Shown here in pieces: positions 7,150 to 62,700 of a stretch of 64,000 nucleotides of DNA. Origin of the DNA: Beroe forskalii (Eukaryota > Ctenophora > Nuda > Beroida > Beroidae); the NCBI GenBank assembly GCA_011033025.1, contig WFMF01000128.1:248001-312000 (forward strand), in the 5' to 3' direction. The first letter of the stretch is position 1. Each line of letters starts with the position of its first letter. Below the pieces are notes generated by a model, which made no database searches, had not been told where the DNA came from, and saw only the letters and a list, made by a program, of their open reading frames with translations. Made by a program: the position numbers and the translations under genes.

Positions 7150-7236
7150 AAGTGGCGTAAATTCGTCATAAAACTGGCGTAAATTCGTCATAAAAGTGGC
7201 GTAAATTCGTCATAAAACTGGTGTAAATTCGTCATG
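7150..7236. repeat. 22-bp tandem repeat, four copies
   Basis: Four consecutive units of TGGCGTAAATTCGTCATAAA type are present, the last one truncated and slightly diverged. It is non-coding. Confidence 0.9.
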
Positions 7237-7766: not shown

Positions 7767-7769
7767 TAT

Positions 7770-9074
7770 CTTTCTGATCTCGGTATTTCTTACAATCTTA
7801 TCAAATAAGTGGCTTCCTAACAAAGAAATAGTCTCCCAAATCGAGTGTGTAGCTAAGATGCCGTAAAAGCAAACTTTGAACAATTGCAATTCACGTTTAT
7901 CCTGTCATTTCCCAATATTCACGTTACTTGACACAGTGATATTCCATGACTCACTTACTTGTCATTTATGTGCCCCACATTTGGAAATGTGATGATCTGC
8001 ACGAACGCCCAGCTCCACTTGTATCCAGTGAACGATTGTCTTGGGAGAATAAACAAGAACATTTCACATCAGGGGGATATCCGGATTTTCTGGTAGATCA
8101 CGATTTATTTCCCCTTAACAAATGTGTAGCTCAGAGAGGCAGTTATTTCTATATTTCAACAGTAAGAGGATCTCTTATCAAAACCAACCATCACGATCAT
8201 TCATAATAGAGACACTTCCAAGTTCCACACCATTTCAACAATTTAATTCCTGTTTAATTCTTGTTTTATTCCTGGAAGCTGTTCAGGAAACTTGCACAGG
8301 TTCCTCTCACGGGTACCGTATTTATTCCATGGAGCGCTAATATTTCTTCAGTTGGATTCGGATCCATTGTTGTCTACTCGCCCCTGCATTCTCGTCATGT
8401 CTCTCACATAACATTTTAATTCCTGTTTAATTCCATTGCGGTATTGAGTCAAGCCATATCCTCCCCACGCTGTCTATATCTGAGTTATGTAACAATTAAA
8501 ATACTAAATTAAGTAAATTTCCATCCATATTATGGATGTTGGTGGAAGCACCGAGATCTAGGATAGTCGACTTAGAAGCCAAGTTTCAGCCAAGTTTACT
8601 GAATCTCAAGAACTGCGTATAGATTGATTTACCCTACAATTCCCCCTTCATATTCTTACTTTTTCCATCTTTTCCCTGAGTTTGCAAGAAGATGAGAGGC
8701 TGATATGATTCTGTTCTCTGAACTCTGAGCAACATTCTTCACTTCCTTGAAGATGTTATTCTACAAAAGTACAAACTTCATTTCTTTTCGTCTTACTACT
8801 TCATCCTCATCAGGAAGACTGGTCTTGAATATATCACTATTCCATCATATTATTAAGTGTTCAAAAACTACAGTTACCATCGTGATTCATATTTAAAACT
8901 TCTTAAGCAGATTAATCAATTAATATAATTGAAATACTTAATGGGCGTATGCAATTCTGATGAATCACAGTACAATTACCGGTCCATTGTCCAGTTTCTG
9001 CCAATAAAAACCATGTAAGAGCAATGTGAAGTTGCCAGTTTAACAAAAATGTTGCTGGTACTGCAAAATGTATA
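7770..9074. other. AT-rich non-coding stretch
   Basis: Only short chance ORFs are present (up to 86 codons), with no recognisable domain, RNA gene or repeat. Confidence 0.5.
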
Positions 9075-9509
9075 CCTTATTGGCCTTTATTTAGCCGGCC
9101 TTTTTTTTAACCGGCCTTTTTTTTAACCGGCCCTATGGACAAAAAATGAATCATTTTTGAACCATTTTAACCGGCCCCTTGGACAAAAATTTTTCTGGAG
9201 GTTGCCAGATCAAGGATTTTTTGCTCTGAAATGACCACTAAAACCCTTTCTTACTTGATAAATTGCATCAAAAGACCCAAATCCCGGTCTGATATCATGA
9301 TTTAGGTCGTTATCGTGTTATAGGTAATGACTTTCCAGTGAATTTTGCACTATATAAGCCAATTCATAAAAGTTTCATTTGACCTAGATTAACTGGCCTT
9401 TAATTTGACCGGCCCCACTTTAACCGGCCTTTTTTTTAACCGGCCCTTTGGACAAAAATTTCAAAGTCGTTTTTGTCCTTAAGGGCCGGTTAAATAAAGG
9501 CCAATAAGG
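9075..9509. mobile_element. 435-bp MITE with TIRs and TA flanks
   Basis: The left end CCTTATTGGCCTTTATTTAG matches the reverse complement of the right end (CCTTATTGGCCTTTATTTAA) at 19 of 20 positions, and the match continues into GCCGGCC/ACCGGCC. TATA lies immediately outside on both sides, as expected for TA target duplication (Tc1/mariner type). Inside, TTAACCGGCC-type motifs repeat at both ends and there is no transposase ORF, so it is non-autonomous. Confidence 0.8.
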
Positions 9510-28780: not shown

Positions 28781-31700
28781 ATGAATTTAAAAAGACTGTT
28801 TTGTGTCTCAGTTTTTATAACTGCACTTCTACTTTTATATGCCCAAGGTTTTCACAAGGAAAAGTATGATTGTGAGTGAACATCCTCCTTTTCTTTTGCT
28901 ATTCATTCCATGTCAATTGTGATGTTAAATTGAATTCTTGTAACCAGTTATAGCACCATTTTAAATGTTGAACAACTACTTCACAACTGATTTGCATGAG
29001 GAACTCTTCACAATTTTAGCCTAGAAATCATTAGCTTACTTTACCTGACTGTTAATAACAGTGGTCAATTTCAGCTGCTCTCAACTATGTGTCAGATGGA
29101 ACAAATTTTATCAAACAACATGGTGATTTTCCTTGTATTCACTTACATATTATTCGCAGCATTTCATATGTTTAAGCTTTTTTCACTATTTAATTATTTT
29201 ATTGAGCACTGTAAATGTGGTATTGAATTGTTGTTCAATTTGATTCTATTACCATTAATCATTAACATGGTTAAATCTTTTCAGTTGGGTTTCAATCAGA
29301 TGATGTTGGTCCACAAGTTCCAATTCCCAGTAGAGATTCCTCAACAGCAAATGAAAAGGTACCTAAGTCATTGTATTCATTGAAAATATCAGATATGGGA
29401 CACTTTTTCATGAGAATAAGTTCCATACATTACCATTTTATTATGACCAAATATATTGATGTATGTTTATTGATGTACTTAAGTATGTAGTGCCCTCATC
29501 ATTCAGTAAATAATAATGAATTGAGAATTCAAAATCAAAGAGAAACAATGAATAGAGTTTGGTTACACATCGAGTGCTTATTAGGTGCAATCAGACCATC
29601 AATCTAAACAGTTTGGAAAGGTACATAAAGTAAAATAGAACGATGAAATGAATGTGGCTTAGAATTAGAGTGATATAAGTTTCAGCTTTTTTGATGTGAT
29701 CAGATCACCAATCTCGCCTAAGATTTCTTCCACTCGGCTTCTCCTCGTTGCATTAAGAACTTATCACACTCAGCTCCTCTGTGTGTGATAAGGAGCATAA
29801 GATTTATGAGCTAATCACGACTTAGGCAGTTGGACTGAGCAAAAATTTGCTTCTGATCCATCAAATGCGAATCGTTAGCCATAAATGTTCGCTTCCTCCT
29901 ATCCACCAACGTTTATTGTCACATAGCTCCTTTTTGATATTTAAGAACTGAGAATTATCACCTCAGTCGTCATTGTTCCATCAAATTTCGTGCACAGCGC
30001 TATGCAGTCGTTTTAGAGTTTTGAAGCTTTAGAGGAATGTGTGTTATCAGACTCGAATTCAATCCACAGTCCGAGGGTGATAATATTCCTGAATAATGAC
30101 AATGCCATATGCAAAGCAATGTACTGTATTTTGTGCTCTGGAGCACAATATCTATGAATGGATATTCATAAAATATAAACTTTATAAAAATGTAAACAAA
30201 TGTGTATGTTTACAGTGTATGATGCATAATTTCTATCAAAGATTGAAGTAGACAATATACGTTAATAAATTCACCAGCTCAGAGAGTATATTTAACGTTC
30301 TCTAACCACAGGCGCAAGGCTCTCACACCAGATCGCTTACTGGTTCCAGTAATTCAAGTGTAACGTCAAGGAGAGTGGACGTGGGTCACACTGACCAGGA
30401 TCAGTACAAGCTACGTCATGACCAGGTTAGCAGCTTCTGGGTGATGGTGTGTATGTTTAGTTGATTGTATGGCTACTGTTAGTGTGTGCTTAGTTATTGT
30501 ATGGTAACTGGTATAGTGTGTGTATGTGCTCACTGCTTAGGTAATTCTGTAATCGTATGGTAACGCAGGTGTGTGCAGAGCGCTCAATCGAGGGAGAGAT
30601 TGATAAAGACGAGCTGCTCTTTCAATAGGATTTATATATCTACAGTTGACGCACGAGCAGTAAATTTATACCCGTAGTTAAGTAATTACGCTTTCCCAAA
30701 TAATGGCCGACCATGTACTGTAATGTCCATAATTTTACAATTATATTACTAAAATTACGCCTAATAGAAGCGGTTATATGATTAAATAAATACATAACTA
30801 ACCAAACTAACATGGTGTAAAAGTTGAAGACTGTTCAAAATTTATCATTTGCCAAAATTAGCAGTTCTAATTATTCTAGCGCCTATAGAATTATGTCTGC
30901 CCTCAATTTTGTCCGTCTATGTACTCACCGACCAACTTATGTTCGGTACAGTAGTCTGGTAAGGTATTAGAATATAAGGTAGTGCTGTAAGGTAGTGCTG
31001 TACTGAGCTCAGTAAGCAATACACCTCCCACTACCACGCTACGTGTAATGAGCTTCTTCTGCACAGTCATTACTCTCCGGTGTTCTACGCTCAAGCATCC
31101 CAGCTATAAACGTTTTGTTATATGCACGGGCTGGGAGCTAGAATGTGGCCTTGGCAATGCACTACACACTGCACTCAGCTCATATTATGCTGAATTGGTA
31201 ATTCTCTTCTGGGCTGTGATACATCCAGTACTATTCAACATCACACACATATGATATACGAGAGAGAACGAGGGTTTCTATTGTTATACATCCGCATGGT
31301 GGTTGGTAATTTGCCCTTGTCCTGAAGAACTGAAGAGCATATAAGAAGCAGGAGGGAGAGAGAGCGTGAGGTGTGGTTAGAGAAGGTGAAGCCGTAAAAA
31401 GACCCAACTTGTCAGCTGATTTTATGTGACATATAGCATTGTTAATGACCGGTTTCAACTATAGTCAGTGACTCAGTGTAGGATGAGTATTAGCTTATGT
31501 TGGACAATGGACAGTCAACTAGTCAATACTTATAGTTATAGCTCCTGTGGTATAGTGAGTAGGTATCAACCTTCCTAATCCAGAATTCTTGTGACGTTTA
31601 AACTGAATTTCTAGCGCTCAGAAAATGGTGATAAGTCCGCAAATTGGTCCGCATTGCAAATTAACTATAGTTCATACATTAATGGTAAAGAGTTTTTTGC

Positions 31701-34700
31701 CAATCTCATATCTTGTGTAATAATGTATGGTATGGTCTTATCTTAGACTAGACTCAGGACAACTCTGAATTTCTATGCGTTTATCGAATAAAATGTACAA
31801 CTTTGCAGTTTGCCCTACCTAGTCACTGTTGGCAATGACATTGCCCATTTACCCGGGTGTGCCGATAAAGGGACTTGTGTTTAGGTGGTGATCTACGTTT
31901 AACTGCGTTAAAGTGTACAAACAATGCGGGCTCTGGGTCAAAGACTATTGACCGATCAGAAGCATACATTTGTTTTGACGTCCAATGAGAGTTACTAAAA
32001 TGTCACACGTGACAATTTAAATGATCCCAGTTAAATAGCATTTAAGCATTTAGATGGTTAACTCATTATTATGTCTGTGATGATTATATGGAATCAATAA
32101 TTTGACATCAGCACTGATAATCTTACACCTGGATTATAATCATCTCAACCGCTGCTTTCTTGATTAATAAGATCTCTTGATCCTTCACCTGACTACTCCA
32201 AATACCTACGCCAGAAGAGTTAATAAACCCAATTTTATTATTTACCCTATCTGACCCTCATTTACCGCCTTAACATCAATTAAACCCAGGTTACCCAATC
32301 AACCCCACTTAACGGTTAATCTAATTAACACTGGTTGTTATTGCCCTGGAGGAGTGCCCCACGATGCGGCATACGGCGGTTCCTCATGCCGTACTACGGA
32401 CTGATGCTGTAAACCCAATTAACCCCAATAAACCTAAACCCAATTAACCCAATTAACGCCGGATATTATCCCCCAGGAATGCCCCACTATGCGGAGGTTC
32501 CTCATGTCGTACTACGGACTGAGACTGTTAACTCAATTAACCCCAATTTACCTAAAGCAATTTAACTCCAATTAACCCAATTAACGCTGGATGTTATTCC
32601 CCCAGGAGTGCCCCACGATGCGGAGGTTCCTTACGTCCTACTACGGACTGAGGCTCCAAGACGCCGGCGGAGTGAGCTTCTTCACCAAGTATAACGACGA
32701 ATACAACGTGTTGTACTGCTCAGTTCCCAAGGTTAGTACTTTAGTAACCGGTTACTGTTTGTAGTCTTAAATAAGTTCTAAAACTTCTAAAACCTGTTAA
32801 AATTAAGTGCTCTGAATTTGCTCAGTTGCTTAGGTTGATAAGATGTATGATGTATGGCATATCCATTAGATGTTCAGAAAACATTTTTCATCTCCAAATA
32901 TAATGGTTCACAGTTCAAGAATTAAACAATGAACGCCTTAAGTAAAATTTAAATACTTTGAATTAGACGTTGAAATATTGTTCCTGATCGTTGTCCGTTC
33001 TCTATATTAGATCACTTAAAAAGCCACACGTAAGAAAGTAAAAGTATTCATTCTTAGAAAATAAAAAGTAACATCCAATCAAAAAAGAAGCTCTGTAAAG
33101 ACCTCACGACTCACTGTCCTTTGTCTAACGTAGTGAGCTATCAGATTGTAGAGAAGACGCAGTAAAGACAATGCCATATTTTCTTTTACCACAGTGCTCG
33201 CTCAGTACTAACCGTAGAATTTATCCCATTTAATGGAAGTGAAGACACACTAGGTGCCTCACAAATAACCAGACTTGAGGAACAGCTCGATGAGTTTTGT
33301 CTAATTTGATTGTGTCTCCACGTGTGTCAGATGTCTAGTTCTTGTTGCTTGAGTGACTGTGCTCTGCCATTGTCTATATGAGTGAGAATACGTGTCTTTA
33401 CCTACAATCAAATATCATTTGCGTGTACAGGGCATTGGGGCATAGGCACGAGGCATTGTGTGAAATGGTGTGTTTTTGGGAGAGTGTGAAGTCTCTGAGC
33501 CATAGCCTGCTTCTTATAGTGGCGTATATTGCAGTGTGTCAATGACATAGGGTCTACTCAGTATTTCTGCATGTATTTAACATGTGCGAGTGTCAAAACA
33601 TGCATTTTATGTGTGAATATACTGCGTGCGAGTGAGTGTAAGAATTTTCCACACATCTGCTTATCTGATGAGTTAGCCTGAATATTACGACAGCTTGGAG
33701 AGAACATGCATTTCAGTTATTTTCGTGTTGTGATGGTGACCCTTCTGTGCGTAGGATGCGCGCAAGGTAAATAGACGGTTAAGATGACGGCATTATCATA
33801 GGATAGAGTGTTAAGTTGATGATGTTTAACCGTACGTTGGGTGAAGTATAGCAACCATATGAGAACAAAATATATTGTATTCATTTAGCGTTTTGTTATG
33901 ATATATGCAACATATGGAACGTAATTATAGTATGTTGCTTAAACTTGGAGCATCGTTCAGGATTTTTAAACATCGACCAGACTTTAGATTTTATGGAAAC
34001 TGTGTCTTTATGATAGTTATACCTAAACATTATTGGATCATGAGTCTGATTTTTGTGCTCAATACAATCTTGAAATGTTTCGACGTTTCGTAATCATCCA
34101 GTAATGTTAGTCTAGAATATTCCAGCACAGATATGTCATTTTATGAATTAGAATATGTCAGTTAAGAAGAATATTTTCTGTTGTAGGTGTCGACTGCAGT
34201 AGATGTATGCACGTGAATTACAGATTACACACAGATCGCTGTCTCAAATATAAAAGTTGAATACAACTGAATTATAAAGCGTTTCTTTCTTTTCCCAAAT
34301 AGCCAAATGTAAGCAGATAAATAAGCAGGATCTCAGGTCTCTGAGCAATAGTTCTAAGGTAACAAAGAGCACTGCATGACGACCAATCAGAGTGTAATAT
34401 CAAGCAAATCCTGGGCGCTGATTGGCTGATCAGGATTCTGTGGTTAGCAAGCTTGCACAGTGTTTCTTTTACAGGTCTCCAAAGAGGGATGAATGAGCGA
34501 TTAACTTCTGCTAATTCAGATGAACTGCAGAGCAGAAAAGAAAGATATTATCGAATGCAAATTTGATCGCAAAAATATCATTACCATACCTTCAAATGTC
34601 TATAACTAGTCACTTTGCTTCTTGTTGGTGTACCAGGGGAGGTTTATCTCTTCAGTTTTCATTGCTCCCTTTTGCGCTGCATTATATGGTAGGTAGTTTT

Positions 34701-40639: not shown

Positions 40640-41345
40640 ATCTTCCAGAGGATTAAAAAGAATTTGGAAGAAATATCGATCAGGCGAGGTGTCGTGTTAG
40701 AGCCAAAACTTACTTTTTCATAAACTTAATATTTCCTTGTGTTTCAACAGTTGGTTGGCATTACTCAATTATCAAGGCATGTTTAGAACCTTCGAAAAAC
40801 ATTCATCTATCAAAGAAAAAAGGATTTTGAAAATATATCAATCAGACGCAATGTTTCAGCTGAAAGTTAGCTTTTAGAAACTAAACATTTCCTTGTGTTT
40901 CAACCGCTTTTCATTGCTACTCAGCCTCTGAAGCAATTTTAAAAATTTCATGGATAATCTATCAACATGAGAAAAAAAGAATTTAATAAATATATCGACC
41001 AGGCGCAATGTTATAGCCAAAACTAGATTTTGTCATAAATTGAATATTTCCTTGTGTTTCAACAGCTTGTTATTAATAATCGACACATTTAAGCATGTTT
41101 AGAATCTTCGCAAAACAAACATCTACCAGAGGGAAAAAGAATTTTGAAAAAATATTGCTCTGACGCAATGTTATAGCTAAAACATTGATTTTCGTAAACT
41201 AAATATTTACTTGTGTTTCAACAGTTCGTAATTAATAATAAAAATATTAAAGCATATTGAGAATCTTCGTAAATCATTCATCTACCAGAGGAAAAAAGAA
41301 TTTTGAAAAAATATCGATCCGTTCTCAAGTTATAGCCAAAACAGT
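40640..41345. repeat. ~150-bp tandem array inside TIR element B
   Basis: Five diverged copies of a unit containing AAAAAGAATTTTGAAAAAAT, GCGCAATGTTATAGCCAAAA and ATTTCCTTGTGTTTCAACAG directly follow the 90-bp array. Confidence 0.85.
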
Positions 41346-42874: not shown

Positions 42875-43712
42875 ACGTATTGAATTTCAAGAGCGTTTAT
42901 ATCACGTACGTACAGTGTACACGCGGCTGTGCAATTAATTCATTGTTTAGGGATGGATCGATCAAATATTATGGCTAAGAGTGATCAATAAAGAGCAACA
43001 ATTTTGCCGCTCACTTCCAAATTCATTCAACTTCAAGTTCTATCGCACAAACAGCAAAATTGCGCGTCTTTATCGATCCTTTGGCTTTACTCGATTGATC
43101 CAGCTGCAAAGAACTATAGAATGATGAAAGGATCACGGCATATTCTTTTACCCACATCACTCAACAGCTGGATAGCCCTAACTAGGACCCTGGTTACGCC
43201 CCTGGTTAGGGGAACAGCTGGATAGCGACAGTCGGCGAGTCAGTATTTTGGACAATGATTGGTCCGAAGAATCGGATGTAAAATCGTTTGACGATCAGCG
43301 TACGAGTTAACAATCAACTCGCCCACTGATTGGTAAATTCCAAATAGAGGGGCAGCCATTTGCTAAGAAAACAAATTGTAAGTAGTCATGGAGGCCATAT
43401 GAGAGTTTCATGAATCAGTTATAATTCCATAATTCACCGCCCCTAGATTATTAAATTTACTATGTTATGTGTTCGATACGTCATTATCTTGCCTTCAAAT
43501 GCCCATCATATGGCGTCAAGTCTTCAGGAATACATTGTCCGGTTATTCCATTATAAAGTCAAATTATAAATGAAATATAGAATGATTGCCTGCATATTAA
43601 CTGCTGGCATAGTAAAATTTGAGCTGCGTAGCATTCATTCGTTTCTCAATCTACGCTATGTCTTGAGTATTGATATTAGATTTAGATGGAGTGATAATTT
43701 CCTTAGTAGGAA

Positions 43713-46700
43713 ATGTTTCAACTGATCAGTGAGGTACTGATCATGGCTATTGTGATGAAGGGAACTCACTCTCGTTTGGGGAAGGATGTAATTCAGGACG
43801 GCCATGAAAATAATCTCACCTACAACGAAATCGTGAAAGAAGCCAGGAGGGAGTGGCATAAGGATCAACTAAACGTGATAAGCCTCTACAATCAATTGGT
43901 CCGGTGGACACGGAAAAGCGAAGAATTTGGAACGATTGATGGCGAGTTATCACCTGAAAATGCAGTTATTCACATACTGGGTTCTGATTTGCATATTTTG
44001 GGTCAATTTCGTCCAGAAATATCGCATAAAAGGACGGAAGCAATGAAAATAATACAGCAATCAACTTCGTCAATAAGTAAAGGCGTTTACGCTACGGCTG
44101 ACTTTTACTCAGCTGTATTTTACCTCTTGAAAAACTTTCAGAAGGATACCGATAAATTAAAGTTAGTCTACGATTGTGGTTACCAACGGGATCTACACAA
44201 TGCTTATTCCAGTGAGTGGACAAACTTGAGCCTTAAACAATACTTTCGACTGGAAAATAATAATGAAAGACAAGATCCCATAAAATCACTGATCTATGAC
44301 CTGTTCGGTCAATTTGCAAATGCAAATACGCTCCATATAAAAGCAGACATTAAGACGGCTATTAATTATGTATACCTATATTCCGCGGGTAGTCGTCCTA
44401 CGGTAACAGCAAAGAATTTGGAAGCAATCCATAGGGCAGGAGTAGATTATCTGCAGTCTTCTTCCACAATGAGCGATGACGACTATTGCATGTATACTTT
44501 ACCCGGCTTCGAGATTTTACTGAAGATAGAAGAGACTTTTTTGGAAGAGTTTCATCGCACTCGCAGTGATATATCAATATGTCATGAGAGGATAGAAAAA
44601 TCAAGGATCATGTCCCTGGAAAAAGCATTAGTCACCTTGCAAGACCATCTTGTGGACGAGCCACTCATGAACCAGTTGCTCGGTAATCCTGAAACGGCGA
44701 AGACTTTTGTTAAATATTTCCAAGATCTGCAGCTCACGAGTCATAGCACTCTGAGGCTTCTATCATGTGAATTTGCTCAACACCTAATAGAATCCAGGCT
44801 AGAAGTATCCTATGAGTGTCCGTATTGCGAGTGTTCGATGCATTTAAGACTGGTTAGTCTGAAGCGAGCGCTGAAACGAATACGGTTGGTGTTGCCGAGC
44901 AAGGGTAAGAAGTGCCGGGAAACGTGGGATAGCGAGTATCATATGGATGCAATGTACACCGGTAAAAACGTCATGCAGTTCCTGTCGGAGCGGCAGACAA
45001 AACTCCTCCACGGGATCGATCACTTGGAATATATGGACGAGGTGTTCGAAGTGTTCAACTCCCGGATGAAGCCGTATTACTGGCAACCATTTGTCAACGT
45101 ACCGTTTGTAAACCTACCTGCAAAGCAAGGCCTATGGTGGGTCGCTTCTCATCTCATAGAGACAGCTAATTGTGGTCAATTCTTGAAGATTCAGCAGTTA
45201 CGAATCTTGTTGTCGGCATATGGATTGCTTCAGTATTATATATTCGACAGAGCCTTCACTGAAGATTGTGGATCACTTTCAGCAATGGAACCGATCGAGA
45301 GCATGGCAATGGCGGATACCATTGACAAAATGACAAGATACGACCAAACCAGAAGATTTGACCTGTTCGACATGGGCGTAACATTACAGCTATACGGCGA
45401 GAGGGACCTCAACATAAACACATTTCAAACGTTATCCGCAACTCTCTTTTCCTACTTCGTCCATGACGAAATCCCAACGGGTTTCGCACACTACCAAACC
45501 CAAGTGGAGGCATTTGTGGAAGAAATGGTGACAGGAGACTACCAAGGATCATACAAATTTGACGAGCAGTTGCGGAAAGAGATGCTCCTGTTATGGGATT
45601 CCTGTGCAACGTGCAATGTGGTGAACTACTTCAAAGTAATCGCGGAGCTAGTCCGAGTTAAGAGCTTCAATTACGCGGAGGGAAACATATACCCCCACGA
45701 ATTCGAACAGGTCAGTTTGTAAACCCCGCATACGGGCTTCTATTAAGGATTATATCACATATCAATTATATATCACATATAATTGCTAAGATAAGAAACG
45801 CGCACAACCAAATGAAAAGTGTGTATTTACAGGCGCTGTACACTTCCACTAAGAACATGGTGACAGCGAGGGACGCACAAAGCCTTGCCTTATGTGCAAC
45901 GAACAGTACAAGGGAGGACTTTGAAAGGTACAAGGAGGCAGGCAATGCTTTCTGGTACTCAGAATACTGGCAAAATGCCCAGTCGTTCCGGGATCTGCTG
46001 TGGATGCTGGGGATAAGCGATGATGTGTCTCTGCGGCAACTTCAGCAAGATTTTGAGCGCCAGGCTACTATGGAGGATTTTGTCAATGAGCAATTGCTGT
46101 GGCTGCATACCGAAGGTAAGAGAAAACCTTACAGTCGATGTACATTATTATTTGGTTCTGTATTATCTAGATTCTAGGGGACCCAATGGGCCTTTCTGTT
46201 TTATGCTGTTTTTAGTACGTTGCTTCGTAACTTTCGATCTGATTGTAATTTTTTGATGCGGTAAAAAGTATTCAATCAATGGTAGTGTTAGCAAACGAGG
46301 TGCTGCGTAGCAGCGCCGAGTGAGCTGTGTATTTGCCCAACGGGCCTGCTAGTATCGTATAATTTGCATAACTTCCTATATTTCCTTCAGGCTATCAAAA
46401 GAAGCACCTTTCCCTGCTGGCAAACGCACAGCGAGGGTGGCGTCTACCGTCCAATAAAAAAGCAAGCAACGAACTCCACCCGCTTTGGGTGGCATTAGTG
46501 AACACCAAAAGGTGCGTGATAATGCGAATGGGGGTGTTCGAACTGAACCCGAGTGAGATGGAGCAAGCAATAAACTGTCTCGTGCCAAGAGGTGTGTTAC
46601 CCAGTCATGTCCCTCTAGAAGTACCTGAGGAACGGTCAGAGGAAGTCGAGGAACAGTCAGAGGAAGTCGAGGAACGGTCAGAGGAAGTCGAGGAACGGTC

Positions 46701-47759: not shown

Positions 47760-50700
47760 TCAAACCGGCGTGTTCATGTACTGGTTCAGCAGCGACTGCT
47801 TGACTCGGAACAGGTCCCGACCGCTGTCTGGTGAGACGGGATCCGAGGGCTTGTGGACGGGCGTGCCGTTAACACTGCTGCTGAGGGAGGGGATATGTGT
47901 TAGATATTCTGAGGACTCAGGTGAGGGGATCAAAGTAACAATCTTGAGAACTGAGGGGACGGGATTAAGGTTACAATTCAGAGTCTAGATCACTTATATT
48001 TTACGCAATCTTTATCAGGGAAAAGATTAACGGTTAATAGTTATACTTAATCTGATTGACCGAAAACACCTTGACTTACTCGTTGAGTATTTTCCCATGT
48101 AAGTTTGAGATATCCAGTCTGGCGAGTTCTCTGTTAAACTCCTCCGTGGTTGCTATGGGGATGTTCTGGGTGGCAGGGGGCGTTGCTAGGATATGGTCAG
48201 TGGAGTCCTCGGCAGGGTTAACAGGGGTGGTGATGGTGTTTTGTGAGGGTTCCGGAGAGAACACCAAGTGTCCGTCACGCAGACCAGGTTTAGTAACTTC
48301 TGTAAGTTTTAATATTGTAATTTTGAATTCGATGATTACGATGAATAAAGAAAGAAAAATCGAACTGATTTTGCCTAAATTTATCTTCCTCGATAGTAGT
48401 TGAACTGCGAATTAATATGAAATTCGAGTATAAGATCTTCGAAAGATAAAACTACATAATTACCTGTAAATGTGAGCACTGAGGAATCATAATCCGGCTG
48501 ATTAATCTCGATATTCTGCTTCATATTCTGATTCTCCGTTTTACCACTGCTTTCTATGTAATTTCCTGACGAAATCACTCTGCCACCATTCCTCACATTT
48601 TCTTTAAAATTATCTGGGATTTCCTCCGATTTTGGACCGTAATTTTCCTTGTGATTCGACTGGAGATTTGCATCGATCGTGTTGTTTTCACCGAAATCGT
48701 AGGTGTCAGCGCTGAAGTTGGTGTTGTCTGATCTGAAGTTCTCCCGTTTTATGGACTGCAGGTTGGGCGTGGCTAACATGTTGCTTTCAAACAGCTGGGT
48801 TCGTTCCTCCCTGAACCTCTTGTGCTGCGGAAGGAAATCAGAATCATCAATCTATTTTCGAACGAATGAGTGTGTTCAATATTGGTTATTTCAATGCTGT
48901 AATCGGGCAATTCAGCACAAAATTTCTTCAGAAAATTCAACATCAGTGACAGGTAACTAACATCATTCTTGATCTTGTTCTCCAGCACAACTAGTTCCTC
49001 CTTCTCCTTCCTCAGCTCCTTCCGGCTTTGTTCCACTTTCTCCTTCTCCTCCACCAGCTGTTGGAACCTGGATTCTAGCTCAGCGTCATGGATAGAAATA
49101 TTTGGAGTAGTCTCATCAAAGGAGGATGGTGACGGCGAAAAAATGTTTAGCCTATGTGCGCAATGACTCAGTATGTACATACCCTTGAAGAGGTGACAAG
49201 TTAAGAGTCTGAATGATAAAGAGAGCTTTGAGCCAACAAAATCTTAAATAGTTCTGTTTTCTTTTCTTTACAAGAATGCAATCCCATTGAAGAAAATATA
49301 TTTTGAATGATAAATTTAAATGAGAAAAAACAGGATATCTGAATAGTTCAGCTTCACATGAGTGCATGGAACTAATATATTTTTAATCGGATCTTACGAA
49401 ACGTCTTATTCTCAAAGAACTGATGGTGAATAGGTACTCACCCCAAGTGCGACTAGCTGTTCGGATATGGTGAGTTGTTGGCTCTCAATGGTTTTCCGCA
49501 GAGAAGTCAACTCTTCCTCAATTTCTGGGGAAGCTCACATGGTGAATTGTGAAAGAAATACCCCAAAAAATTCATTGAAAGCACGACAACATGATTAAAG
49601 TCAAGGGTGTTTTGAGTCTCGTGTCTAAAAAATAAAACTATGTTTCTACTATCTAAAATAATCAAAAAACATTAGATGTTCATTGTTCATCGATACCTTT
49701 ATTGCAAGTCATGCGTCGGTGCTTCTCCTTAATCAGCTCTATCTTATCATCAATGGAGGTCTTAAAAGTGTCCTGTACCACAGCATGCGGCATGTTGATG
49801 TGAGATATGATCTTAGGATCCAGGTCTGCTGTAGCAAAGAAACTCTCGTCAACGTTACCAGAGTTTATTACGTTTATCAGTTCTTTTTCAAGACTTGCAA
49901 GGCTGAAAATAAAGGAATATGATACCTTTTCGGAATCTTATCATGAATGTATGAAGGAAAAGTTGATGCAATTTTTTCATATTTCTACAGTCCACTTTTC
50001 AACCGAGCGCGCAACAACAAAATCTACAGAACAGCTCAAAGAACAATAACTGATCACTAAACTAAGCAAAAACTTAAAAACACCCACCAGTGTCGGAGGT
50101 GGTCGTTCTCCTGGAAGAGTTCCTTGTTCCTCTCCTCCTGTTCCTCCACCAGCTGCTTATATAGCTCCTCCCTGGGGTCATCTCCCCACTGGGGCCGCCT
50201 GCCTGATGCGGAGCGGGGTACCGTGTTCAGTACCTGCTGGGTACCTGGGAAGGTGCTGGTTAGTACCTGCTGCGTACCTGGGGGAAGGTACTGGTTAGTA
50301 ACCAGTCATCTCCCCACTGGGGCCGCCTGCCTGATGCGGAGCGGGGTACCGTGTTCAGTACCTGCTGGGTACCTGGGGGAAGGTACTGGTTAGTAACTAG
50401 TCATCTCCCCACTGGGGCCGCCTGCCAGATGCGGAGCGGGGTACTGTGTTCAGTACCTGCTGGGTACCTGGGAGGGTAGTGAGTTGGTACCTGAGAGGGT
50501 AATGAGTAATGTACCTGATCAACTGGGTAGACTATCTGTGAACTGGTTGATAAGAACCAGTTGGTACCCAGAATTTCATGTGTGCTCAGGTCGTTGAGAG
50601 AAGGATACCTAATTCGCAGAGAGAAACAAAATGGGCCTAATTGACCGACTGACAAGAATTCATGATCAGGGAAATATACCCACCTTTCTCCACTTTCTTC

Positions 50701-53700
50701 TCCATGATCTTCTTACACAGTCTCTCCTTGTGTTGAAGAGATTCCCGCTCCTTCTTCCTCACTTCATGGTTGAAATGATCCTGTTTGTGCTCCATCATCA
50801 CAGTCAGCCTGCGAACCTGAAGGGAAATACGTTTATCAGTTCCCCACCTTCTTTTGATTTGCAAAAAATGCTGAGAGTGAGAACAGTTTTGACGAAATCT
50901 TGATTTACTAATTTGGGAGGAATTTGCGTTCGCAACGCTGAACCGCGCCGTTCATTCCGAAAATGCCGTATATTTTCATGCGCCGTAAAAATCATCCAAC
51001 TTCGCGGGGGAATTTTTAACCCTCGGCCTCACGAGTATGAGTACGCAGAAATAACCGTTCTTATTTTTGAAAATAACCACATTTTTGCATTTAAACTCCA
51101 ACCTGTCAAGCTAATCCGTGCCGTTTGAAGATGAACCGCCTTGATGGGAGAATAGACATATTCAGCTCGGAGCTAACAATACCCGTACAATAGCTGGAGT
51201 AGTGACAGGGCAGATTATTGCTTTGTATTGACTATTCCCACAGACAAACATACGTACACCATCTAAAACATTTGCACCAAAATGATCAAATTCAGTAGTT
51301 CAAGGAATATTTATTACCTCTGCACTTTATTATAAACAGGTCGTGTGACGGATAATGCTATAAACAACATTTCGTACGTTTGTCAAAGGTATTGTACTCG
51401 TAACTCCTTTGTCTTTTGCCGTCTTTTGTACGCTTAACTTGTCCCAACTCCAATTGTCATTCTTAACACATACCTCCGAAGTCCTTGTTCTGTGTTACCT
51501 ACAGTCACGACACTACGACAGACAGGGTAGTGTGGTTAGCATTATTCACCATGAGCACCAAGGATCTTCCCGGGCCCAGGAGTCATTTCATGAGCTAAGT
51601 CGCATCGCACTCGCTTAGAAATTGGTCTGAGAAAGATATCTAAGGAAAGGATTCTCATGGTGATATGGATATGGAGAAAATTTTTACTTAGTGAGTAAAG
51701 TTTATGTTGGAAAAAATCGATTAAGCGATACTATACTGTGACTGAACTAGGAGGAAAATACCTTTACAATCAAATAAGTTAACAATGTTTTTTATCTGAT
51801 TGTTATCTTAGCCCTGTAATAATACCTATCGCAACGGAGGTTATCACTTGGTAGCTATCACTTCCATCATCAGACGTTCCGAACATAAAGCTCTTGGAGA
51901 TGTAAGACCAAAGTGGTCTGCACGTTTCTTGTAATTCTGGTTTGTCCCTGAGCGTCCCAATATTGGTAAACACCACGGTCTTGAATTCTTGATTGTTGCA
52001 TTTCATGTTAATTTCAGTACCGGTCTTTGTGAAAGTCCAGACGCTATTTCCTGGTTGAAAGTCTGGTATCTGCTGTCCACTTATCCAACTGGTACCCAGG
52101 TTATCACACTCTATCTTAAATTGGGGACTATCTGTCAACTTTATTATAAGTTTTGCTTTGTGGAAGGGGTACGCAGCGTTCTCTTTATCAGGGGGCAAGT
52201 CACTGCTTTGAAACAGAATGAACAGTTTCTTAGTAGCAGCATCAGGGTCTAGTGTGAAGGATGTCTTCACGTTCAGAACGGATATGTCTGAGTTGAAGGG
52301 TACCACGGTGCCTGCCGCAGGTTTCTTTATCCAGGCTGGGCGAACGAATGGGTCATTATTGTCATACAATGCGGTTTATAGATGGATAAATGATAAATGA
52401 GAACAAGTTGCTGTGAAACAGCGTGTTATCTTATGGTCATGAAATGATGATGGCTATTTGATATTTATCTTACATGGCAACCAAACAAATAGTACACGAA
52501 AGAAAAATACAGGGTACCCCGATAAACCCCCTTAAAAATAAACCTCGTTTTGGCTTTTATATTTCCACTTAGGTATTTGTTGGGTTGAAATTTGCGAGAA
52601 CATCTTTGAAATGTGTCAATTTAATCGATGAAAATGGTACCATTTCGAAAAGGCAAAAAGCTATAAGGAAAAAGTATCATTTAAGAAATTTCCCAAAAGG
52701 AGCTGAAAATACCAAGAAAAAAATGTCACTTTTTCAAATAATTTGGTTTAGCCGCCTCAAACTCCCATAAACCCCCATCAATTTCAAAATTCCATATCCA
52801 TAATCCACCGGGAGTTTATCGGGGTCGCCCCTTCCATTTATAAGCAGCTTTAGAAAATCATGGGATTATCATCGTAAAGCTGAAGGCGGGAGATAAGCGA
52901 GTGAGGGTGCTTGGTTGTGACAAAAAAGCGGTACAAAAACTTACCAGCACCATCATCAGGTCGTGTATTTTGTGGAAAGAGGAACAAAATCCACAGGACC
53001 AACATCTAAAAGGCGAAAAATATCAAAGTAACTTTTATCAAAATATCCATCTCAATTTATATATTATTTGAACAACATCTGTCATAAGGCACAGTGCATC
53101 TTGTGATGCACACAATAACTGAGCCACCTGTCAATATAATATTATCACACAGTTACAAGCACAAGGGCAACTTATGGTAGTTTATAAGCAAAAAAGTGGG
53201 TTTTGTAAATGCCCTTAGCCTTAGGTGCAAAGATAGATGACTTAAACAATGGGGGTGGCAAGTTTGGTATACCGGACAATGGGGGAGCCAAAATACCTCC
53301 CCTTAATCTTGGTATACATCATAACAGAGTTAACCATACCCAGGCTCGCCCTACACTTGGGCTAACCTCTAATCACGGGCTCCCCTATACACCGCTCCCC
53401 TTAATCTTGGGCTTACCCACTTCCCTTGGTCTCACCCCTAAACAAGGGATCGCCCATACCAGACTCGCCCTTATCCTGGGCTATACCGTATATGGCTCCA
53501 CCCTACCTTGGGCTTCTGGAATGCCTTGGGCTAACCCCCAAACACGGGATCAACCATACCAGACCAACCCTTATCCTGGGCTATACCGCATATGGCTCCA
53601 CCCTACCTTGGGCTTCGGGAATGCCTTGGGCTAACCCCCAAACACGGGATCCACCATACCAGACCAACCCTTATCCTGGGCTATACCGCATATGGCTCCA

Positions 53701-56700
53701 CCCTACCTTGGGCTTCTGCAATGCCTTGGGCTAACCCCCAAACACGGGATCCACCATACCAGACCAACCCTTATCCTGGGCTATACCGCTTATGGCTCCA
53801 CCCTACCTTGGGCTCCCCCTCGCTTTAAATATGGGCTCCCCTCCGTTATATTGGGCCACCCCATTCACTCACCCCATGCCCTCTCCCCCCTAGTTTGGGC
53901 TCCCCCATGATCAGAACCCGGACTACCCCGTATTAACTCGGGCTCCATCATGATAACTCGGGCTACCCCCCTACTAACTTGGGCTCCTCCCGTAATAACT
54001 CGGGCTCCCCCCTTATTAACTCGGGCTCCCCCGTATAAACTCGGGCTCCCCCCGTATAAACTCAGGCTCCCCCGTATAAACTCGGGCTCCCCCGTATTAA
54101 ATCGGCTCCCCTATAATAACTCGGGCTCCCCCATGATAACTCGGGCTCCCCCACTACTTGGGCTCCCCCATACTAACTTGGGCTCCCCATACTAACTTGG
54201 GCTCCCCCACTACTTGGGCTCCCCTATACCAACTTGGGCTCCACCGTACTATCTGGGCTACCCGTACTAACTTGGGCTCCCCCGTACTATCTGGGCTCCC
54301 CCGAACCAACTTGGGCTCCCCCGTACTATCTGGGCTCCCCCGTACTAACTTGGGCTCCCCCGTGCTACCAGGGCTCCCCCGTACTATCTGGGCTCCCCCA
54401 TACCAACTTGGGCTCCACCGTACTATCTGGGCTACCCGTACTAACTTGGGCTCCCCCGTACTAACCTGAGCTCCCCCATGCCAACTTGGGCTCCCCCGTA
54501 GTATCTGGGCTCCCCCATACCACCTTGGGCTCCCCCATACCAACTTGGGCTCCCCCGTACTAACTTGGGCTCCCCCGTACTAACTGAAACTCAGGCTAAC
54601 TCCATTATAACTCGGGCTTCCCTCGTATTAACTTTGGCTCCCCCACACTATTTAGCTCCCCCATACCAACTTGGGCTCCCCTGTACTATCTGGGCTCCCC
54701 CATACGGAAACGTTCAGAAATACCTGCTGTTAAATCAGAAATTATTTTACAAAATATGGCAAATTTAACGAAAATGGCTGTCAATCTTAAAAATAAAACC
54801 TTCACTGTAGAGATATGAAAATCTGATATATACTGTATATATATCATATATATGTCCAATTCCACGACGATGTTTACCACAGTTCGAAAATTCAAGGTGG
54901 AGCTAAGGTGATGAAATTTTGTGTCTAGTTAGAAGAGATCTGTAACTTTCAGGAACAAAAAACCGTTTGTGAATGGACTTCCCCAGTTTTCGTGAGATTC
55001 GGTCAAACTTTGCTTCGAATGTGAATCAATAATGATCAATTTTGGGACTTTTTCGACCATATGATATCTTGAATAATGTGCAACTTGGTAAGCTGCAAAA
55101 TAGTTTCGCATATTGTTAGGAACCCTAACAGCATTGTCCTGGTGTATTGGCTCTCAAGTACTTCAAATGAAGGAGATATTTCATTTTTTGTCAGTAGCCC
55201 AAACCTTGTGAATTACGTAACAATATAGTACAAAAAGTTTTATTACTCCTAGAGTATCAAGTCTTTGGTCTTCAAATTTTCATTTCAGGAGTTTAGTGGG
55301 TATATCTTGACAGTGAGACAATTTTTTGTGCTTTGTTTTTGTCACAGAATGAGATAAAGCTGATGTGAATTACGTAACGTTACGTAATTCACAAATATCA
55401 AAGTATGCCAATTAATTTGGAAATGCTTGTATTTTGCAGCAATTAATATAAAACTGATTGGGATATGCTTAAAGTAACCAAAAATATTAATTTCGTATAC
55501 ATGGGGGGGCCAACCCCCCAAAACCCCCCCAACCCCCCAAAATTAAGCCCCCTATTGGTAATTTGTTATATCCACCTGGGGGGTTAAATTAAACCCCCCA
55601 AAATTAAACCCCCTATCGACAGCAAAAAAGGGTCTAAAATGGGTCAAAATTAAGCAACAAAAAAGGTACCATTTGAAAAAATTGCCAAATATCACGAACA
55701 AAAATGGTACCATTTGGAAAAAGGGGTCAAAAATCGTGAACATAAATGGTACCATTTTGAAATGGTGCAAAAAATCAGAAACAAAAAAGGTACCATTTGA
55801 AAAAGATGCCAAAAATCAGAAACAAAAACGGTACCATTTGAAAAAAATGTCTCTTTTTCATAGTTAAGGTTGTTTTGATACTGAAAATTAAGCCCCCAAA
55901 ATTAAACCCCCTATTGGCGATTTTTTATATCCACCAAAATTGAGGGGGTTGCCCCCCCCCTACATACTTTCATTCTTCGTCCAATGCTGTCCAATTTTAC
56001 GGCTTTCAAAGATATATCAGGGACGAGAAAGTCAACAAAACGATGTATGGGGGAGCCCGAATCGATATGGGGGAGCCCAAGTTCAAATTGGGGGAGCCCG
56101 GATAGTACGGGGGAACCCAAGTTGGTATGGGGGAGCCCACGTTGGTTCGGGGGGTCGGGGGAGCCCAAGTTGATATGGGGGAGCCGAAGTTTGTACGGGG
56201 GAGCCCAGATAGTACGGGGGAGCCCAAGTTAGTACGGGGTAGCCCAGACAGTACGGTGGAGCCCAAGTTGGTATGGGGACAAGTTAGCATGGGGGAGCCC
56301 AAGTTGGCATGGGGGAGCCCAAGTAGTGGGGAGCCCCAGTTAGTACGGGGAGCCTGGGTTAGTACGGGGAGCCCACGTTTGTACGGGAGCCCAAGTTTGT
56401 ATGGAAGCCCAAGTTTGTGGGGAGCCCAAGTTAGCATGGGGAGCCTAAGTTGGTATGGGGAGCCCGAGTTATCATGGGGGAGCCCGAGTTATCATGGGGG
56501 AGCCCGAGTTATCATAGAGCCGAGTTACATCATGGGGGAGTCCGAGTTTATACGGGGAGCCTGAGTTTATACGGGGAGCCCGAGTTAGTGGGAGAGCCCG
56601 AGTTTGTATGGGGTGCCTGGTTAATAAGAGGGTTTCCGAGTTACGCTGAAGGCCCAAGTTAGTAGGGGGGTAGTTCGAGTTATCTATGATGGGCCCTATT

Positions 56701-59700
56701 AATACCCGGGTAGTCGGGTTCTGATCATGGGGGAGCCCAAACTAGGGGAGAGGGCATGGGGTGAGTGAATGGGGTGGCCCAATATGCCAACGGAGGAGCC
56801 CATATTTAAAAGCGAGGGGCCCAAGGTAGGAGGTGGAGCCATATGCAGTATAGCCCAGGATAAGGGTTGGTCTGGTATGGTGGATCCCGTGTTTGGGGGT
56901 TGGCCAAGGCATTTATAAAGCCCAAGGTAGGGGTGGAGCCATATGCGGTATAGCCCAGGATAAGGGTTGGTCTGGTATGGTGGATCCGTGTTTGGGGTTA
57001 GCCCAAGGCATTCCAGAAGCCCAAGGTAGGGTGGAGCCATATGCGGTATAGCCCAGGATAAGGGTTGGTCTGGTATGGTTGATCCCGTGTTTGGGGGTTA
57101 GCCCAAGGCATTCCAGAAGCCCAAGGTAGGGGGGGAGCCATATACGGTATAGCCCAGGATAAGGGCGAGTCTGGTATGGGCGATCCCTTGTTTAGGGGTG
57201 AGACCAAGGGAAGTGGGTAATCCCAAGATTAAGGGGAGCGGTGTATAGGGCAGCCCGTGATTAGAGGTTAGCCCAAGTGTAGGGCGAGCCTGGGTATGGT
57301 TAACTCTGTTATGATGTATACCAGGTTTAGGAGAAGTCCGTGTATCCAAAACGGATACAGGGGCTCCCATAACTTGCCACCCCCATTCCAATCACGATAA
57401 TGGACTCGACTAGTGACTACAATTAATGATAAGGTTTGCAACTCTTTGGTTACCAAATAAAACGGACTCAGGAATGGGTAACGATAGGAAGACCGAGAGC
57501 ATGGAAAATTGGCGCTTCAGCTTCATCAAATCTCCATTCCAAACACTGATAACGACATCATTCTTGACCACCCATAGATCCAGCTAGCTCCGTACAATAG
57601 GTTAATACGGGTAAAAGGGTGAGATCGAACATACCTCACAATGATGTCCCTACTTTGCTATTGTTGATATAAACGAAGTCTTTTGTGAATTGTGCAAGGG
57701 AGGTGGTACACTCACCACTTTTGTAGCAAAAACATCATATTTTTAAACAAAGGGGCTCATCATGGTGTTCACCGCGTTCTGTTACCAGTGCCCAATATTC
57801 TTGGCCCACTTTGCCTGGTGCCCACTGTTCTTAGTGTTCACTGTTCTACCAGTTCACTGTTATAGGTGTGGAGAAACAGTGGAGTGACAATAATACGGAG
57901 CTGTTTTGTGAATAATTCGCCACTCAAACACGCAGAAAAATTTGAAAAATAAGAAATCTGGCTACCACTTTTCCTGCCAGTTAAGAACAAACTCACATGC
58001 CTGTTATACCTGCCACGTCGTATTGTTAACAACCTTCGTTCAAGAAAGACAAAGAAAACAGACAAGTTATCTGACCAATGACAAACACTGTCGTTGAAAG
58101 GCAATACCCTGGAGAGGAAGGTTTTTTGCGAATTAAAAGACCGGAGCCCCGACTTTTCATAGAATGCCTGCCTTTCCGCTTGGTGGTGCTGTTAATGAAC
58201 CGGACAATTTCGATAAATATAAACAAAAATGCTGGCAAATTATGAAAAGAGCCTGCAAATATCATTTACATTCGAACGTCAAGCCAGGAGGAGGGAGGAA
58301 TCAATCATCGACTACAATAATCGAGTTTGTAGAGGGGAGAATGAAAATCCACTTTAGTCAGTTATTCCTTGTCATAAAAATAAAAATAAAAATATTTTTC
58401 AATGACAGTCAAGGTATGACAGTTGATTATTGAATATCCTGTCATCCCGATACCTTTACACATCATGATGGTCACCAGTCATTGGTCATGGACAGATTTT
58501 AATTAATTTCATGCAATTTCCTACCCTGCTACAATATTTGGGTACGCAAGCATCACCAGTGACCATCACCAGTAAAAAATCATGCAACCTCGGAATGTTT
58601 TTGAATGCCACTTTTGGGGGCTAACTACATCGCGAATTTGATGGATTTTAAGTAGCCCTTGAGCAAGTTTTTGATCGGGTGAGTGCATTGATTTCCTTAA
58701 TCATCAGCACTTGCAATAACTTGTCGCCATACCTAATCTGAAATTTGATTTTATAAAGTAGTATTGTAAAGTTTGAAATTATATCGCCTCACTACAGAGG
58801 TAACTGAGACACATTTTTTTCGATCATACCAATCGATATATACCTGCTTTGGCAGGCATGAGCTGATACCAAGTTTAAGTCAAAACTCAACGGAAAGATA
58901 AAGTTGACGGTTTATCTTATCTTTCGAAACTCAAGGACTCCACAACGCCAACACCAATTGCTTCAGATTTGTATCTTGGAAAATGGTTAAAGCACATATC
59001 TGAGGAAAGGACTGTCTAAAAATCTTCAGTAAGAAAACACGCCTTGAACCTCACAGCCTAATAAATACCTAGCTTTTAATCTATTATTATCATCTTGGCG
59101 GCGTATTATCTTGCCTACAGGCCCATCTTTAAATTCAATATAAAGAGAAGCGAGTATATGGGTTTTTAGTCGGCATAATAGATTAAATGGGGGAAATGTG
59201 TGTATGGGGACTGTGTTGATGTATATATGGACTTTGTGTCGGCGCGTAAAGGGTTTTTTGGCGGCATCATCTGTTGGATACGTGTGAAAATGTTTTTGCG
59301 TCTATGGCTGTATTTCCTGTGACCCTTTGGGCCCTCTAGTTTGACTAAGCAGCGCACAAGTCGTACGGGGATTGGTCAATGTCATGATGATTTCGGGATC
59401 CTGGTAAGCTAATACGCTGCCACCATTACTACCTGGCATTGAATAAAGTAAACCCTAACACCCCCGTCATGAAGCAAATCATACCTATCAGAGCAGTGGA
59501 TATCTTGTAACTTTCACTACCATCATCGTGCTTCCCGAACATGAAGCTGGTGCTGCTGTACGTCCAGATCGGCAGACAAGGAGTCTTCAAATCCTTCTTA
59601 GCCGACCCAAGCTCGGTATAAATCACAGTCATAACTTCCTCTCCGTTGCATTTAATCTCCAGAAAATCGCTTGTTTTTCTCAACGACCAGGAGCTATTTC

Positions 59701-62700
59701 CAAACTCGCAGCTTGGGATAACTTCCCCTCTCAACCACGAAGTTTGCTGGGTGTCACAATTCAATTTAATAAGCGGTCTTTTCTCCAAAGTTATGCGAAC
59801 TGCTGCCTCGTGGAAGAACGAGTAATCGTCTTTATCTAGAGGAAGCACTTCGCTTTGGAACCTGATGATTATCTCCGGGACATTTTCTAGGACTGAAACA
59901 GCTGTTTTAACCCATAAGACTGATACGGCACTATCCATAGGTATAACAACTCTCCAGTCGGCTTTGTCAATCCAAACTGAGAATAATTTCACGATGTACT
60001 GTTGTAGTGAAATGGGACTCTGCAGTCCATTTTACTAAAACGAACCCCATTTTCATTTCATTAGAGTTTAATTATTTCTGGCTTCAGGCAGGTGACTTCA
60101 GGTGGAAGAAGTCATGTACTTGGTTAAGTAGATTCAACAGATGTTGCCTACTTTACTTTACAATGAATAAGATCATATATTCATTAAGATATCATATATA
60201 TAGATTTCCTACTACTTACCATCATCAGGGACAACATCATCAGGTACAACGGGAGAAGTAGTTTCCTTCGGAAAGAGCACTGAAATCCAAATAACCAACA
60301 TCGGTGAAACAACTCGACAGATTATCGATACAGATGTGCTATATGGTGCAGCATAAACTTAGTATTTATAGTTAGAATTGTACGATTCCCTGCTTCAGGA
60401 AATTAATGTTGGCACCAATAGTATCCTCAGTAAAACAAACGAGAACACTAGTGGTAGCAGTGTAGCACAACAATAATTACGATGTACTTAATTTAACAGC
60501 CTATGTGTCGAAGTAAACTGTACAAGCTTCGATGTGCGGAACGGAAGCTGTGATAAGATTTGTAACTTGTAATGCGGGATTTGTTATTTGCGATGTGGGA
60601 CTCGTGATCTGGCATGTGAGATCTGTAATTCGTAACGCGGGACTTGTAATTTTTCACGCGGGATTTGTAAGTTGCGACATGGGATCAGTGATTTGTTATG
60701 TCTTAATGTGGGATTTGTGATTAATTAGCCAAACCCAATATAAAGGCATTTGATAGAAACTTCGAGACCACGGTAAAATATATCACGTGTGTTTAGGATC
60801 TAAATTATTAATTCTGTAATCTGTACTTTTATTACTACTGATTAATTTGTAAAACTATAACCGTCGTTTCCTTTTGTACTATTGATAGTTGAAAATACAG
60901 GACGACTCAGAATCACCCTATAAGACGACAGACTAGTCCAGAGAGCCGAGACGTTGGTAGACAGAGGATTTATCAAAAGGAACACTGATTTAACAGCGGC
61001 GGACGGTGATAATTTAGCTGATTAATACTTTAATACTATTCATAAATTCTAGAAGTTATTAAACTACAAGGAAATTATATACGGTAATTGTCATTGCTTT
61101 GTTTATCTCTCGGAGCAAACAATCAGTCGAACAACTCATACAAGTATCGTTGCGGATGTGTAAATTTCAACGATCATGATTTTAAAATCAGTCACTTGAA
61201 CAAAGCTGTTAAATACGGTTGGTGCAGGTTGGAGTGGTATTTAAACGAAATGCGTTCTCTTTGTTTATATTATAGACTCTGAGAACTCTGAATAAAAGAT
61301 GGACGTCAAGTAGGCAGCAACATCCAGGAGGGAGACAATGGTAATTCTCTTCCTATAACCTATGTGACACTCATCCATTAGAATAAACCTGGCTTCTATA
61401 GTTCATTCGTTGAACTAGGAGCTCATGAATCAACTTTATTATTCTTATGAACTATGTCATATGATCCAGTTCAATTGTTGAAATTTGCTTTGACTTCTCA
61501 CTGTCTCGAATAATAATCCATGTGATTTGGTGCCTGATTTCTTTTATGTATGCCAAAGGTTTGAATTTATTCAAGCTTTGGTATTGGAGTTTAGACTTTA
61601 GGCACCGAATAGTAATTAACTGCGTAAAAAACTGCGAATGCAAATTAGGGGAGTGGAATATTTGATATTGCCACATAGCAACTTTGTAACAAGTGAATTG
61701 AGATGAAGGGAGAGTGGTTGTGATGTATCAGTAAGATACAGGGAACTTAGTTTGTAATAACAAAGGCACCTTAGTTTGAGTTTTAAAGGCTATTAGGCAC
61801 CTCCTTAACAGTACCTTATTAACAACGTCACCTGATTAACAACAGCACCTTCTTTGAACAGGATAAGCAAGACAGAACATCAAGAAAATGAATCCAATTA
61901 ATGACCGGAGTTGCTACACATATTATGTCGGTTGACGCTTCTCAGCACCCAATCAAGCATGCCGAAAAACGTTACGTGTACATACCAACTCAGAACTCTA
62001 TCACGTTGACCCAGTTCATGCTCTAGATGGGCTAGCTGGCAGCTACTCGCTATTTGCAGCACTACATAGCTACCCTAAACGTCCGAGAGACCCGTTGGAT
62101 TTGGAAGGCCGGCCGGACTGCGTGTATGCAATCCAAAGATAAGGCCGCGTGGCGCGCGCGCGCGTCGATCTTTTATGTCGCGCGCGCAAATTAGGCGCCA
62201 AAATTTCAAAATTCTGGAATTTGTCGTCGCGCGTTCCATTCAAAACAAAATTTCGAAGAGTTTTGTACCAAAGACCGGCCAAAATACCAGTGAACAAAAC
62301 AGCAATACCAGAACTCTGAGGACCTGATTCGTTAACAGGTCGCATTATCACAGTGTAAACTAAGTGCTTAAATAAGTAACGAGAATACATTCCATTTCCG
62401 ATACACTCTTTCTCTATTACAGCCAAACTTTCACCTAATTGGCTTGCCTAATCATAGCCTTTGTTTAGGTTTATACTGACAGTGCAAGACTGTGTCAGTA
62501 AAGCATGTAAGCATTCTGCATGAATACATCCTTATCGATGTACATGTTACTTAAATAACGTAAAACTCAGAGCTTGGGCATTATTATTTCGATATGTTAC
62601 GCCATGGTTATCTTACTTTAAGGTATAGTAAAATCCGTTTTGTGGGGTTTATTTTCTTAAACACGCAGCCCGCTGTAAGGCAATGGTTTCATTGAATCGG

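Follow-up and report, generated by a model that had tools for sequence, protein, structure and literature searches.

Tandem repeats across an intron–exon border of an SSX2IP-like gene in Beroe forskalii and their probable nature as minisatellites

In a gene of the ctenophore Beroe forskalii, an acceptor and the exon start that follows it are present three times in succession. We call the gene SSX2IP-like, a tentative name. It lies in a window of 64,000 nucleotides (C168:248001-312000); genome searches were run on the 216-Mb assembly. The preliminary description pointed to the same arrangement in a second, unrelated gene of the window and proposed a recurring process, for example replication slippage or repair at intron–exon borders. 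Does this genome possess a process directed to its splice borders, or do such repeats belong to its tandem-repeat content in general? In this work we have examined the structure of the repeat, its counterparts in other genes and the frequency of repeats at splice borders.

Structure of the repeat and acceptor choice in the SSX2IP-like gene

The triplication is real. On the minus strand a 78-base family begins at 50177, 50305 and 50400, with identities of 100, 94 and 96% and spacings of 128 and 95 bases, and the likeness of the two intronic copies to the true exon start is far beyond chance (Table 1). The repeat unit is 95 bases long and consists of 68 exonic and 27 intronic bases. The intronic bases comprise the TTACTAAC branch-like motif, pyrimidines and CAG, and between the copies this part reads T(G/A)GTTACTAACCAGTACCTTCCCCCAG on the minus strand. 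One spacing is 128 rather than 95 because the last copy contains an extra unit of 33 bases. Since smaller acceptor-like units lie further upstream, the locus offers at least five (C/T)CAG^GTAC sites, at 50490, 50467, 50372, 50277 and 50244.

Table 1. Features of the two repeats in the window; ^ marks a splice border
Feature	Position	Strand	Description	Basis
Upstream exon	50684..50816	-	ends GAGAAAG^GTGGGT, phase-1 donor at 50683	sequence and translation
Affected exon, SSX2IP-like gene	50088..50244	-	acceptor TTCCCAG^GTACCC	predicted from sequence and frame
True copy, exonic part of unit	50177..50244	-	68 bases	repeat family and identity comparison
Extra unit	50245..50277	-	33 bases, own TACTAAC and CAG	frame and translation analysis
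Intronic part of unit	50278..50304	-	27 bases, TGGTTACTAACCAGTACCTTCCCCCAG	sequence reading
Intronic copy of exon start	50305..50372	-	68 of 68 bases identical to true exon start	identity comparison
Second intronic acceptor segment	50373..50399	-	27 bases	sequence and genome search
Outermost intronic copy of exon start	50400..50467	-	66 of 68 bases identical to true exon start	identity comparison
Nested acceptor-like units	50463..50507	-	about 23 bases, 2.0 copies	TRF
Sibling exon	32606..32731	+	acceptor and first ~50 bases repeated upstream	exon score 17.3
Sibling, two intronic copies	32352..32605	+	starts 32352 and 32477, spacing 125 and 129	sequence comparison

Which of these acceptors could serve the gene? 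When the affected exon is joined to both neighbouring exons, the translation is in frame and free of stops; the start of the upstream exon was placed at 50816 by eye and at 50808 by the exon finder, which scored 50684-50808 at 22.6. In the list of CAG sites between 50560 and 50244, two alone, 50277 and 50244, keep the frame and meet no stop; each of those listed above 50277 leads to a frameshift or to stops. The site at 50277 is available as an in-frame alternative because the 33-base unit brings its own CAG, and its use would add 11 residues, TQQVLTSTFPG. Judged by the predicted reading frame, an intact protein must be made from the last acceptor, 50244, or from the one at 50277.

A 166-residue piece of the protein has five matches in the genome, all in one locus (C168:297695-298816). 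In genome searches the repeat unit is confined to this place: a 23-base part of the 27-base intronic segment occurs, with at most one mismatch, at two places which both belong to the locus. A 601-base query from the locus found itself alone, in a search that skipped very common words. The joined exons had no match in a Pfam search, nor did a search of the genome with PF11559 give any. Of other models run against the genome, that of let-7 matched a single place, on both strands and with less than its gathering score; mir-10 had no match, in a run in which no control gave a signal either, and a 16-base ascidian spliced leader had none.

Some other features of the window were recorded. Just upstream of an apparent later exon of the SSX2IP-like gene, TRF reports a pyrimidine- and acceptor-like array of 1.9 copies of a 35-base unit (47910-47977), which is restricted to the intron. 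The ORF at 43710-45722 obtained no name from Pfam and PDB searches. Two minus-strand ORFs, at 51806-52375 and 59432-60031, are related and have in common, by eye, an end of the type ...SFMFG..DDGS.SY..., and the ORF at 3236-3733 may be a relative of this pair; a Pfam search of 51803-52375 and 3233-3733 returned no family. Finally, 53424-57209 holds a large inverted pair of minisatellite arrays (TRF), with units of 100 bases and of 20 bases (CCCCGTACTAACTTGGGCTC) on the left and what by eye appear to be their reverse complements on the right, possibly a foldback element.

Acceptor-spanning repeats in other genes

The partner duplication claimed for the second gene of the window was likewise borne out: on the plus strand, the acceptor at 32606 is preceded by copies at 32477 and 32352, and TRF finds an array of period 129 at 32374-32655. 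These copies are less similar to each other than those at 50177, one has small insertions, and the outermost ends in GGAG, not CAG. The intron between them carries short repeats of the AATTAACCC type. No family was found by Pfam in the plus frames of 31001-34602. Another array, at 40695-41343, was a candidate for the sibling, but 32352-32655 was preferred to it.

We also read eleven 10-kb stretches at arbitrary positions of the same genome (L002-L012). One of them (L003, C25:100001-110000) contains a tyrosine kinase gene with a focal-adhesion-targeting domain (PF07714, PF03623), here called FAK-like, which is partly duplicated in tandem: 4040-5958 matches 6739-8623 at 92.6%, and 5951-6724 matches 8649-9401 at 87%. 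The same kinase exon is affected in both gene copies, by a 60-base unit that reads CCTCTTCCTCAG^GGTACTTACACAAGTG followed by about 31 exon bases. Counted by text pattern and with the true site included, acceptor-like sites number 12 in one gene copy and 3 in the other, a difference such as a length-unstable minisatellite would probably produce. Exact matches to 28 bases of the unit number 10 in the genome, and all of them fall within C25:106653-110393; since four are outside the stretch that was read, the larger array must extend beyond its end. The exon-like part of the units has GCAGTG in 10 of 13 intronic copies, whereas the true exon copies have GCGGTG or GTGGTG, a pattern that homogenisation among the intronic units would give. 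The junction of the duplication of about 2.7 kb (4040-6724 and 6739-9401) is at most about 15 bases from the outer edge of the array, which suggests that the acceptor-straddling array may have served as a recombination breakpoint.

A further case came from kinase exons, which are not a random sample of genes. From 135 kinase matches, 22 acceptor windows (12 and 10) and 12 donor windows were chosen. A clear copy of acceptor plus exon start was present in one of the 22 (L013), where a perfect match of 29 bases (24 from the exon and 5 from the intron) recurs 95 bases upstream and gives two acceptor sites; the 22 include L016 and L044, in which no border is visible by eye at the start of the hit. 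Since the windows of the second acceptor batch were shorter (301 bases), distant copies could be missed in them. A possible decayed case of 18 bases was seen in L018, also among the 22, and no exon-including copy was detected in the 12 donor windows. In L024, L043 and, by eye, L045, short-unit arrays end just before the acceptor of a kinase exon and include no exon sequence. The kinase sequence of L016 (C1079, a contig of 22.8 kb) has by eye no apparent exon border and differs in character from the other kinase exons; this contig is possibly foreign.

In all, four independent loci clearly have acceptor-spanning repeats: two lie in the window, and the others are the FAK-like locus and L013. This upholds one half of the proposal of a recurring process, namely that the arrangement recurs in unrelated genes. 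The three copies, which had been regarded as a constant of it, are not: the numbers are 3, 3, 12 and 3 (in the two gene copies of one locus) and 2.

Frequency of arrays at splice borders

The other half of the proposal, the tie to intron–exon borders, requires a comparison with the genome at large. Our sample for this was 174 kb, the window together with L002-L012. Arrays cover 7.5% of it at periods of at least 30 bases and 8.9% at periods of at least 20, with great unevenness between stretches (0 to 23%, period at least 30), and 60 of the 68 arrays of period at least 20 overlap no predicted exon. The exon finder, a simple one, derived its codon usage from 12 long ORFs in these 174 kb and its splice-site matrices from the general animal consensus; at a score of at least 12 it gave 39 exons compared with 6 in a shuffled control, and it missed real exons.

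Acceptors lay inside arrays (period at least 30) in 4 of 39 cases, where 2.6 were expected on random shifts (P 0.26), and donors in 2 of 39, with a mean of 2.6 (P 0.74). Of these four acceptors, two belong to the window cases from which the question arose, and the other two are the gene copies of a single locus; outside the window the count is 2 of 28 exons. In a direct test we asked whether the 25 exon bases at a border recur (at least 20 of 25) within 400 bases. They did so at 3 of the 36 acceptors whose flank was long enough, a count that becomes 4 of 36 when the SSX2IP-like exon is set at 50244 (the finder had placed this acceptor at 50277, where the test scored 18), at none of the 39 donors, and at 5.5% of 34,800 random points. 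At the random-point rate, the binomial P is 0.13 for 4/36 acceptors and 0.056 for 0/51 donors, the latter number being composed of the 39 donors above and the 12 donor windows examined by BLAST, a different test. Because the shift and random-point counts are near background, at low power, repeats have not been demonstrated to be commoner at acceptors than in the genome as a whole. Two apparent donor cases were rejected. In L006, in a gene that by eye is dihydroxyacetone-kinase-like, an array of about 6 copies of a 43-base unit (6904-7157) runs from the last coding codons and the stop into the 3' non-coding region; the other, 9667-9757 in L011, is purine-rich low-complexity sequence in a doubtful exon.

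Could there nevertheless be a mutational process biased to 3' splice sites, in which, for example, the pyrimidine tract, repeats of the branch site or transcription-linked structures promote slippage or repair? The four clear acceptor cases stand against none clear at donors. Arrays (period at least 30) occupy 10.3% of the 50 bases that precede acceptors and 4.1% of the 50 that follow donors; their share is 10-12% from -100 to +30 of acceptors as against 2.6-5.0% in the donor bins. By eye, moreover, TACT-like motifs are common to the exon start and the branch region in both the SSX2IP-like and the FAK-like gene. However, the acceptor rates given above are not clearly above background, half of the array-borne cases are those that raised the question, and the published examples from lancelet include a donor-side boundary (PMC3087553). 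The preference for acceptors over donors is a hint, not significant, and the same few loci drive both of its signs. We therefore regard such a bias as unlikely, and equally doubt its corollary, that an active duplication favouring 3' splice sites leaves perhaps a few percent of introns, a rough figure from a small sample, with serial complete acceptors, which number 12 or more in a FAK-like gene. If it were true, it would provide a standing supply of new splice sites, of in-frame exon extensions and possibly of new introns. Duplications at borders were originally expected to be commoner than tandem duplications elsewhere, and the present sample (174 kb and 39 exons, of low power) speaks against this. 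With a small sample and weak exon prediction, a border-specific process is not established.

Origin of the arrays and comparison with known systems

Very probably, the repeat in the SSX2IP-like gene is a minisatellite peculiar to its locus which by chance lies across an intron–exon border, of the kind called "mirages" in amphioxus. At the SSX2IP-like locus the tandem unit spans the intron–exon boundary predicted from sequence and frame, and it is particular to the locus, not a dispersed element; both are marks of a mirage. The border-straddling arrays seem to belong to the general wealth of tandem repeats in this genome and not to a process aimed at gene borders. The segment made of intron end and exon start would have been duplicated locally in tandem by replication slippage or unequal exchange, and slippage, which had been suggested from the start, is with unequal exchange in a minisatellite the best mechanism. 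The array would then have grown as a minisatellite, and the nested units of 23, 33 and 95 bases point to several rounds. Selection would retain only those outcomes in which one complete exon stands at the downstream end, so that the extra copies come to lie in the upstream intron. The pre-mRNA should carry several full-looking 3' splice sites, each with a TACTAAC-like motif, pyrimidines and CAG; most simply, exon definition from the downstream donor would pick the acceptor that adjoins the true exon, and the extra copies would be neutral.

The common geometry of the two window cases, anchored on the acceptor and growing upstream, was correctly noted, but it is forced on any acceptor-spanning duplication that is tolerated. 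A working gene needs the whole exon after the last copy, and partial copies therefore lie upstream in the intron; equal geometry in two genes thus says little about mechanism. The array of L006, whose stop-carrying units lie downstream, and that of L009, whose 24- and 27-base units keep the reading frame within an exon, fit the same logic of tolerance.

Is it possible that an intron is being created here? Under the AGGT model of Rogers, the 95-base unit, bounded by AG^GT, would be spliced as an intron of its own or act as a recursive splice point. AG^GT intron gain is still conceivable at the SSX2IP-like locus because the acceptors there have the form CAG^GTAC; 50278-50372 receives a weak score (10.4) from the exon finder, and in potato an RdRp intron has arisen from a duplicated intron 3' side plus exon start (PMC4974935). 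However, of the acceptors listed from 50560 to 50277 only the last keeps the frame and avoids stops, and neither the sibling (AG^GAGT) nor the true FAK-like acceptor (AG^GGTAC) has an exact AG^GT, which is found in L013. We consider intron creation distinctly improbable. An artefact of assembly, by false expansion or joining of haplotypes, is less probable still: repeats assemble badly, and one mirage was aberrantly assembled in a genome draft (PMC3087553), but the copies differ by substitutions and by nested units of unlike length, and structures of this kind, built from different units, occur at separate loci. To an introner-like or transposable element inserting at borders we give almost no credence, despite the recurrence in unrelated genes with similar geometry, since the copies include host exon sequence, the units look unrelated between loci by eye, and genome searches with the SSX2IP-like and FAK-like units found each at its own locus only and not one sequence family in many introns, which argues against mobile introners.

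Four clear loci were met in the small part examined; if border-straddling minisatellites are this frequent, the genome would offer a natural test of how the spliceosome chooses among several 3' splice sites that are almost identical. It would likewise show whether introns are gained, or slide, through tandem duplication. For this purpose the FAK-like exon, with 12 acceptor-like sites in one gene copy and 3 in its sister, is the best object that we met.

How do these loci compare with known systems? The variable internal tandem repeats of human duplicated genes are alike in that the expansion of a minisatellite alters gene structure; they belong, however, to primate segmental duplications and are not border-anchored by definition (PMC2812944). 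The potato RdRp case shares the duplicated 3' side of an intron and 5' side of an exon, with branch site, pyrimidine tract and acceptor, but there a new intron arose (PMC4974935), whereas here the listed upstream acceptors are disfavoured by frame and stop codons. Related work describes Drosophila introns derived from tandem duplication (PMC2891723). In a literature search with most journals outside its coverage, we noticed no reports of boundary-straddling minisatellites other than those from amphioxus. Mirages are minisatellite-like tandem duplications that cover an intron's 3' end together with the beginning of the following exon, and they have been described in Adh3, the globins BflGb6 and BflGb9, troponin C and PGBD5, with units of 10-72 bases in Adh3 and 150-160 bases in BflGb6 and identities of 81-100% (PMC3087553, PMC3902484). 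Two haplotypes of BflGb6 have 6 and 3 units, and splicing is reported to be undisturbed (PMC3087553, PMC3902484). The first paper refers to previous work on Adh3 and proposes that introns can originate from mirages (PMC3087553); PGBD5 and troponin C were added by the second (PMC3902484). In amphioxus a donor-side example is known, for BflGb9 (PMC3087553), whereas none is clear in our sample, and splicing and haplotypes are reported there, while the present loci are known from genome sequence alone. The match in kind is nevertheless close, with a tandem unit lying over intron end and exon start in both animals. Border-straddling minisatellites are thus already known in lancelet, and the loci described here add further cases.
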